Of a stretch of DNA of 64,000 bases, positions 29,423 through 62,208 are shown piece by piece. The stretch is from Exiguobacterium sp. FSL W8-0210 (GTDB taxonomy: Bacteria; Bacillota; Bacilli; Exiguobacteriales; Exiguobacteriaceae): assembly GCF_038006045.1 (NCBI RefSeq), contig NZ_JBBOUK010000001.1, positions 1,467,001 through 1,531,000 on the forward strand, read 5' to 3'. The notes beneath the pieces were generated by a model. It made no database searches, was not told where the DNA came from, and was given only the letters and a program-made list of their open reading frames with translations. The translations under genes and the position numbers were made by a program. The stretch's first letter is position 1; each line of letters opens with the position of its first letter.

Positions 29423-29503
29423 ACAACACCTCCTATTTTTTGTCATAGGAATTGATCATAACATGGTTTTCTAGTCGAGGATAGAACGAAAGGAGTGAAT
29501 GAG

Positions 29504-29926
29504 ATGGTACCAAATTTCATAATCGAAGGGATGACGATCGTTTTTACACTACTCGTAATCGGTTGCGGCGTGATATTCTTGCCGCAGCGATGGAAGCGGT
29601 ATGGCTTGATTTTACTTGGGTTGGTGGCAATCGGGTGCAGTTCCTTTTGGTACATCCGACCGACGCTCGTCAATCAACAGATTGCTGAGGATGAGAAATT
29701 GCTTAAGATAGAACTAGCACGTCGATTCCCGGATGAAGTCTACACTACAAAAACACAAAAATTTTCGTATGAGTCTTCGGCGAATCCGGCTTCAATCGAA
29801 GTCGAATTTGCAAATGAACCTGACGTAACTTATTTTTTAGATATGGATGGGAACCGGATTAGGCTTTCAAGTTTTATCTTTAAAAACGGAGGATTTCCAC
29901 AGGATTTACAGCATGAATTCAAATGA
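29504..29926 (+). CDS. Hypothetical membrane-anchored protein
   Basis: 140 aa from ATG 29504, 8 nt after AAAGGAG; a GTG at 29495 is in frame but overlaps that spacing. Two hydrophobic segments (about 8-28 and 34-54) are followed by a soluble ~80-residue C-terminal domain (ELARRFPDEVYTTKTQKF, VEFANEPDVTYFLDMDGN), like the DUF3139-type outside domains of small Bacillota proteins, though not a firm match. The transcript runs directly into the structured repeat at 29931. Confidence 0.55.
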   Translation: MVPNFIIEGMTIVFTLLVIGCGVIFLPQRWKRYGLILLGLVAIGCSSFWYIRPTLVNQQIAEDEKLLKIELARRFPDEVYTTKTQKFSYESSANPASIEVEFANEPDVTYFLDMDGNRIRLSSFIFKNGGFPQDLQHEFK

Positions 29927-29930
29927 AGAC

Positions 29931-30128
29931 GCTGACTCAAAAAAAGAATGACGCGTCTTTTCACGCCCTTTCCTCAGGAAAGCGGGCTTGTTCGTCTCTG
30001 ACAGCGCATAAATGCGCTTGTTCCTGTAGGAGTGGCGTGTGACGTGTCATTCTTTTTGTTACTAAATAAGGGAGGCAGATCATTATTCTGCCACCCTTAT
30101 CTTTGTAGAGACTGACTTTTGAGTCAGC
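29931..30128. repeat. Structured dispersed repeat, copy 1 (MITE-like)
   Basis: About 198 bp. Outer inverted repeat GCTGACTCAAAA / TTTTGAGTCAGC. Inner imperfect inverted repeat AAAGAATGACGCGTC / GACGTGTCATTCTTT around an 83-bp core. Then a hairpin TAAGGGAGGCAGA / TCTGCCACCCTTA. The same parts occur at 61967-62208, but there the core is the reverse complement. It lies between two convergent genes and ends with structures that can act as terminators. Confidence 0.8.
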
Positions 30129-60683: not shown

Positions 60684-60823
60684 CGTTTTGCACCTTCCTC
60701 ATCCTGTAGTCATCTAGCCATATTGTAGCACTCTGCTTCACTAAACGCACAAGAAGACCCTGTTTGAAGCAGTACGATTCGTGGGAAAAAGACAAGTAGT
60801 ATGTGTTCAGGAGGAGATTGAAA

Positions 60824-61960
60824 ATGGAAATAGTGGATGCCCGTGCTTTACCTGCCGATCATATGGATGTCTTGCATGTCACACCGTCGTCGATCTATTT
60901 TCGACGTCGCCTCGATGACGCCCGTTACCACATCAGTCGGTATGATCTTGAAGATCAAGAACAAGTCGATCTGACGCAGCAGGCTTTGACGGATCACGGA
61001 CCGACCCGACCGTTCGTGCGGCACGGAAGAGTCTATTGTTTGAATGAACATACGCAAGAGCAGGGCGGGGAGACGGAAGTGCTCGTTATCGATCTCTTGT
61101 CCGGTAAACGGGAGCAGATTGCGTCGTTTTACGTGGAAGGGGATTTGACGCTCTACTGGGTGCTCAATGACAACTATCTCGTATTCTTGCAGACGACGGA
61201 TACGACGTCCGCGTTTTTGTATGACGTCAAGGACGAATCACGGCAGACGATTCGCGATCCACGGCTCTACGGGATGACGGAGAATTACCGGGAACTCTAT
61301 TTCTTTCTCGTCACGCTCGAAGACAAGGAGTACATCGTCTGTAACGCTCGGCTCGATGAGTTCTCGTTCTATGACGCCCTTGAAAGTGGTGTCATCTCAC
61401 CAGAAGATCCGATTGATCACTCCGAAAGTCTGTTGATCGCACCACTTTCGACCTTGATTGAGGAGATTGAACAAGGTGTCGAACATTTATCGTTTGCGAC
61501 ACTATTGAAATTAGATGGGGAAGGGGATACCGTCCAGTATCTCGGGGAACAAGAAGGGCATCTCATCTTCAGTGCCTATACCGATCGTCTGAACGAAGAA
61601 ATCTTTTACCGGATTGATACGGAAGCGAGTGTCGAAGAGGTCGCCCGGATCCAGTGGAGTGACTACGAACCGCTCGATTTCACATACGATGATGTTGAGT
61701 CGACGATCTTCATCGTTAATGACCGATCCGAGCACCATCATGAAATAATCAACTTACGCAATGGTGCCCGATTCCTCGATAAAGAACCGTTCGAACGTGT
61801 CTTACGGGGACGCTTCTATCTACACGAAGCGATTGGAGACAACGCGGAACCGATGGTCACCGTCTATGATGCAGAACACAATGAACGCTATCGGTTCGAG
61901 GATGCCTATTATGTCACTGTGTCCGGGGAACTTGTCATCTTATCAGTCCATCAACTATAA
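60824..61960 (+). CDS. Predicted beta-propeller-like hypothetical protein
   Basis: 378 aa from ATG 60824, preceded by CAGGAGGAGATTGAAA; the frame extends to 60803 with no ribosome site. Very acidic, no signal or membrane helix. Repeated short beta motifs with aromatic and Asp/Glu turns (ISRYDLEDQEQVDLTQ, LIFSAYTDRLNEEIFYRIDTE, DFTYDDVESTIFIVNDR) suggest a WD40-like or YncE-like propeller, but the repeats are not sharp enough to be sure. Unknown role. Confidence 0.5.
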   Translation: MEIVDARALPADHMDVLHVTPSSIYFRRRLDDARYHISRYDLEDQEQVDLTQQALTDHGPTRPFVRHGRVYCLNEHTQEQGGETEVLVIDLLSGKREQIASFYVEGDLTLYWVLNDNYLVFLQTTDTTSAFLYDVKDESRQTIRDPRLYGMTENYRELYFFLVTLEDKEYIVCNARLDEFSFYDALESGVISPEDPIDHSESLLIAPLSTLIEEIEQGVEHLSFATLLKLDGEGDTVQYLGEQEGHLIFSAYTDRLNEEIFYRIDTEASVEEVARIQWSDYEPLDFTYDDVESTIFIVNDRSEHHHEIINLRNGARFLDKEPFERVLRGRFYLHEAIGDNAEPMVTVYDAEHNERYRFEDAYYVTVSGELVILSVHQL

Positions 61961-61966
61961 AAAAGT

Positions 61967-62208
61967 GGGACTGACTCAAAAAAAGAATGACGCGTCACAC
62001 GCTACTCCTACAGAAAAAGCGCATCTTTTCGCTGTCAGAGACAAACAAGACCCGATTTCCTGCTTGAATAAGGCTGGAAAACTGGCTTGTGTCTCGCCTG
62101 AGGAAAGGGCGTGAAAAGACGCGTCATTCTTTTTGTTACGAGATAAGGTTGGCAGAATGATGATCTGCCAACCTTATCTTTGTAAAAACTGACTTTTGAA
62201 TCAGTCCC
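61967..62208. repeat. Structured dispersed repeat, copy 2 (MITE-like, inverted core)
   Basis: About 242 bp. Outer inverted repeat GGGACTGACTCAAAA / TTTTGAATCAGTCCC, inner AAAGAATGACGCGTC / GACGCGTCATTCTTT, then hairpin GATAAGGTTGGCAGA / TCTGCCAACCTTATC. Relative to copy 1 (29931-30128), flanks keep the same orientation but the core is reverse-complemented and has about 36 bp more. It lies between the convergent genes ending at 61960 and 62306, where it can serve as terminator. Confidence 0.85.

Follow-up and report, generated by a model that had tools for sequence, protein, structure and literature searches.

Core inversion in a family of structured intergenic elements of Exiguobacterium

Small inversions of hairpin loops in intergenic DNA, found by comparison of species, are known from the stem-loops of chloroplasts. 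As far as these inversions are described, the turning around of a loop is common to them and to the Exiguobacterium element analysed here, although the chloroplast hairpins are single-copy. In yeast, template switching homogenizes the arms of hairpins and inverts the spacer between them (PMC8604942), and in bacterial rRNA hairpins it inverts loops (PMC8794818); the published spacers are short, comprising 2-5 bp in yeast (PMC8604942) and up to 7-8 nt in rRNA (PMC8794818). The inversions in Exiguobacterium resemble these cases in that the spacer is turned around exactly, the arms are perfect and may at times be homogenized, and the outcome is a rare fixed difference between relatives. In contrast with spacers of 2-8 nt, however, the Exiguobacterium spacer comprises 121 bp, is itself a long folded hairpin and resides within a dispersed bacterial element.

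Three further systems invite comparison. Bacillus cereus bcr1 is among the stem-loop repeat families of the Firmicutes (PMC2267715), a paper from which Exiguobacterium is absent. By description, bcr1-type repeats are similarly dispersed and structured, of comparable size and without evident coding capacity, whereas the Exiguobacterium family is marked by its apparent substitution for terminators. Invertons (PMC11892184) likewise consist of a segment between short inverted repeats that exists in both orientations, but in Exiguobacterium the orientation is nearly fixed and the arms are not specific. Finally, bidirectional intrinsic terminators (PMC5381666) share the stem flanked by A/T tracts after convergent stop codons, together with compensatory changes in the stem; the Exiguobacterium 'loop', in contrast, is ~200 nt long and carries two further arms.

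A structured element at the ends of genes

The window, a stretch of 64,000 nucleotides from Exiguobacterium sp. FSL W8-0210 (genome G000), contains two copies of the element, both of which lie at the coordinates, and with the flanks, given by an earlier sequence-only reading, and both between convergent open reading frames as it had stated. That reading knew of these two copies, whereas the genome holds ~25. The element is ~235 nt long. Its outer stem (consensus GGGGCTGACTC/GAGTCAGCCCC) encloses two further arms: a long one, in which the inner stem AAAAAGAATGACGCGTC/GACGCGTCATTCTTTTT delimits a 121-nt core, and a side hairpin whose loop has 7 nt. Copy 1 (29931..30128, plus strand) has the outer stem GCTGACTC/GAGTCAGC. 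Its inner arms, AAAAAGAATGACGCGTC at 29941..29957 and GACGTGTCATTCTTTTT at 30041..30057, differ by a single C/T and enclose a core of 83 nt in the standard orientation (29958..30040), from which ~38 nt between CAGG repeats have been deleted relative to the full core; the side hairpin (30066..30100) bears the loop TCATTAT, also in the standard orientation. The gene on the 5' side, which converges on the element (29495..29926, plus strand), has no Pfam match, and from the other side a bacteriorhodopsin-like gene (PF01036; 30138..30884, minus strand) converges on copy 1 and ends right beside it.

Copy 2 (61967..62208, plus strand; outer stem GGGACTGA.../...TCAGTCCC) has the full-length core. The inner left arm AAAAAGAATGACGCGTC (61980..61996) forms 17 bp of perfect pairing with the right arm GACGCGTCATTCTTTTT (62118..62134), and the 121-nt core between them (61997..62117) reads on the minus strand. 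The side hairpin (62141..62179) has perfect arms of 16 bp and a 7-nt loop, ATGATGA (62157-62163), which matches the family loop TCATCAT exactly when reverse-complemented. A gene with no Pfam match (60803..61960, plus strand) and an OsmC-like gene (PF02566; 62306..62728, minus strand) converge on this copy.

RNA folding of the two loci, a check that the sequence-only reading had proposed, gave z values of -9.5 and -12.4 against shuffled sequences. When 72 copies were aligned, the proposed structure was paired in 95.1% of cells, and 24 pairs had changed on both sides; shuffles gave 11.0 such pairs, and sliding the structure along the alignment gave 11-17. The element is, as predicted from these folds and alignments, strongly structured, with covariation. 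Rfam covariance models identified no family at gathering level, and a permissive threshold returned only matches far below cutoff. A junction-pattern search found the standard core junction restricted to Exiguobacterium, while plasmids, phages and viral contigs contained no match to the element and we found no description of Exiguobacterium repeats in the literature. To judge from these searches, the family is one of genus-specific structured intergenic elements.

The positions occupied by the element point to a role in transcription termination. Among 97 copies, the neighbouring frames, taken as the longest open stretch within 480 bp, converge in 66 cases and share a strand in 31, and no divergent pair occurs; the element starts ~17 nt past the stop codon. 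An A-rich stretch precedes 78 of 93 copies and a T-rich stretch follows 74 of the 93, with both present in 62. At all five loci for which element-free relatives were available (copy 1, copy 2, L004, L005 and L018), the relative has an intrinsic terminator hairpin at the exact site. The terminator positions, the A/T tracts and the lack of any divergent context together make it most likely that the element acts as a bidirectional terminator.

Inversion of the core at copy 2

The sequence-only reading held that the cores of copies 1 and 2 are of opposite orientation. Indeed, the copy 1 core scores 51.6 when aligned to the copy 2 core after reverse complementation, against -2.4 for the direct alignment and -2.0 for the best of 500 shuffles, so the match is better than chance. 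The contention that the cores align along their whole length holds for the reverse-complement match itself but not for its continuity; the alignment contains one long gap because the copy 1 core lacks ~38 nt of the 121-nt core. It should be emphasized that the unusual orientation is that of copy 2, not copy 1.

The locus of copy 2 has an ortholog in another Exiguobacterium species (G012), where the flanks are identical at 319 of 330 positions and the core is standard; the other relatives read at this locus are element-free. After reverse complementation the copy 2 core matches that of the G012 ortholog at 118 of 121 positions, compared with 71 of 149 in direct alignment, and the turned segment, 121 bp inverted in place, ends precisely at the 17-bp perfect arms on either side. 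The proposal that the core had inverted across the inner inverted repeats is thus borne out in place, against an orthologous locus. The side loop of copy 2 is inverted too, relative to the family, in G000 and G012 alike; this had escaped the earlier reading.

It could be argued that the core was not inverted where it stands but was replaced by gene conversion, with the inner arms pairing it to some other copy in reverse alignment. The genome offers many near-identical donors for such an event. The G012 ortholog, however, is the closest of all sampled cores to that of copy 2, the next best matching at 115 of 121 positions, and import from another copy is therefore unlikely. These comparisons indicate that the copy 2 core was inverted once, in place, after the lineage had split from that of its close relative.

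Template switching as the probable mechanism, and rival explanations

The family occupies terminator positions, and we consider it probable that the core inversion represents the generic inversion of an inverted-repeat spacer by template switching, the mutational mechanism that best fits the sequences. On reaching one arm of a hairpin, DNA synthesis would jump to the complementary template, and it would return at the other arm, such that the spacer is turned around; an equivalent exchange of strands at a short palindrome could serve in place of the two-step switch. Folding of the core may bring the inner arms together, allowing the 121-bp spacer to act as a short loop. The length of this spacer, which far exceeds those of published cases, counts against template switching. 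The sequence-only reading had offered palindrome-templated strand exchange in a MITE family as one of its two explanations. Its strand exchange is close to the explanation preferred here, but a MITE is not established: no target-site duplication came to light, a search of the Y1 transposase family yielded no intact autonomous partner, and terminators are replaced by the element, which is more than a simple insertion.

Other hairpin loops are also inverted. The side loop TCATCAT is clearly inverted in nine of 77 scored cases, copy 2 among them, and is discordant between the orthologs L189 and L174. The 5-nt loop at the apex of the core is inverted in three copies (L158, L178 and L182), of which L182 is discordant with its orthologs L010 and L141, while L158 differs from its orthologs L161 and L186 at both loops. 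In L158 the inverted loops lie between long perfect arms of 22 and 20 bp (the medians for standard copies are 16 and 10), as template switching would give. Across all copies, arm length was rejected as a predictor of side-loop inversion, with no significant difference between inverted and standard cases (p = 0.16).

Outside the element, the inverted loops that speak for a generic process are few: an exact one of 7 nt and two more of 4-5 nt. The former is at the copy 1 site itself, which in G012 and G007 is occupied by the ordinary terminator GACCGGATG[CTCAAAA]CATCCGGTC and in G001 by the same terminator with the loop TTTTGAG between unchanged arms; the two shorter loops are inverted between G000 and G001.

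A palindrome as strong as the whole element could extrude, and the core might have been inverted independently of replication, either by recombination between the 17-bp arms or when a cruciform extruded there was resolved. Arms of 17 bp are, however, short for RecA-dependent exchange, and loops of 5 and 7 nt, in which exchange is less plausible, invert at similar or higher frequency. We regard this route as no more likely than gene conversion, that is, unlikely.

Inversion of the core is scarce. Detailed scoring of 12 Exiguobacterium genomes, the check that the sequence-only reading had suggested, found 94 of 97 full-length copies in the standard orientation and three, at two loci, flipped, in a sample that was gathered mostly with a standard-orientation query and is biased accordingly; seven other members of the genus were surveyed less closely. 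The flipped copies are copy 2, L018 in the same genome (G000:C1:1814456-1814636) and L192, the ortholog of L018 in G017. Among ~28 orthologous groups, that of copy 2 alone is discordant in core orientation. Junction patterns were also searched separately in 19 genomes, by a method that misses diverged ends such as those of G017; two flipped and 54 standard junctions were returned, and the flipped junction was found nowhere in a search across 84,980 species from which the records of G000 itself may have been omitted. Among the similarity matches listed, G017 alone was split in the way that a flipped copy should be. By these counts core inversion is a rare event, and a switch is not supported.

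The other explanation in the sequence-only reading was a recombinase-driven switch, in which a site-specific invertase would act on the inner repeats AAGAATGACGCGTC, with the 8-bp palindrome GACGCGTC inside them, and flip the core reversibly. The inner arms of the three flipped copies are perfect over 16-19 bp, which fits the 10-40 nt range of invertons (PMC11892184), and inversion exact to the arms is also what an invertase would produce. Against this, orientation is the same in 94 of the 97 copies and agrees in ~27 of the 28 ortholog groups; arms of at least 15 bp also occur in ~43% of standard copies, which are unflipped; and the inverted core sits where two genes converge at their ends, without an obvious promoter that could be switched. 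Furthermore, the hairpins that invert (inner, side, apical and ordinary terminator) are mutually unrelated in their arms, which argues against a site-specific recombinase. A switch of this kind is therefore improbable. That the inversion is an artefact of assembly, which short palindromic repeats may in principle confuse, is scarcely credible, as L018 and L192 are flipped in independent genomes, one of them metagenome-assembled, and the arms are presumably far below typical read length.

Spread of the family and significance

At the five element-free sites no target-site duplication was seen by eye, the hairpin having been replaced instead, and the element most likely spreads by replacing terminators. 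At L005 the flanks of the element-free relative are 99-100% identical, and the replacement there is therefore recent; L004 and L005 carry elements of identical sequence. The L005 locus (G000:C1:398999-400149) and its counterpart G012:C1:378745-379697 have flanks that are ~100% identical, while other loci of the two species differ by several percent, which suggests a recent exchange of chromosomal DNA.

With regard to a mobilizer, a genome search for a Y1/REP-type transposase, confined to the Y1 family, found a single broken copy, with a stop codon and an apparent frame change (G000:C1:1653830-1654182; L342, L343). We tentatively propose, as a possibility that we doubt more than we favour, that the family spreads without a transposase. 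A replication fork stalled by a hairpin would switch between terminator hairpins through their common A/T tracts, which would put a large structured element in the place of ordinary terminators across the genome, and inversions of the loops and core would be the same process on the complementary or sister strand.

The genome also contains related and derived sequences. One copy (L017, 1551-3234; G000:C1 ~638850-640533) is split by an insertion with two open reading frames resembling an IS3/IS150-type transposase pair. A second dispersed repeat (L020, L021, L024, L025, L215, L217-L219, L224, L227 and L230) has the core in common but different flanks (CAGATTGTAGACAAATGG ... GCGTTTTGTTCACTCGACATCGCTTCCTAGGGAAAAACAAGCAAGAGCGACC), as if two structured families had exchanged modules. 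At L030 (1449-1514) the outer stem is nearly core-free, apparently a deletion derivative, and diverged core-like sequences that lack the outer stem are clustered within G000:C1:2402000-2813900 (L028, L029, L032-L035).

Inversion of this type is already known; what is new is how long the inverted segment is and that it lies within a repeat family that replaces terminators. This study takes hairpin-spacer inversion beyond spacers of a few bases, to a folded core of 121 bp. The family, with ~100 naturally occurring copies across 12 related genomes and loops of three nested sizes, provides a test bed for the effects of loop and arm length. A repeat family that takes terminator positions by replacement could, in addition, rewire the ends of genes without classical insertion.
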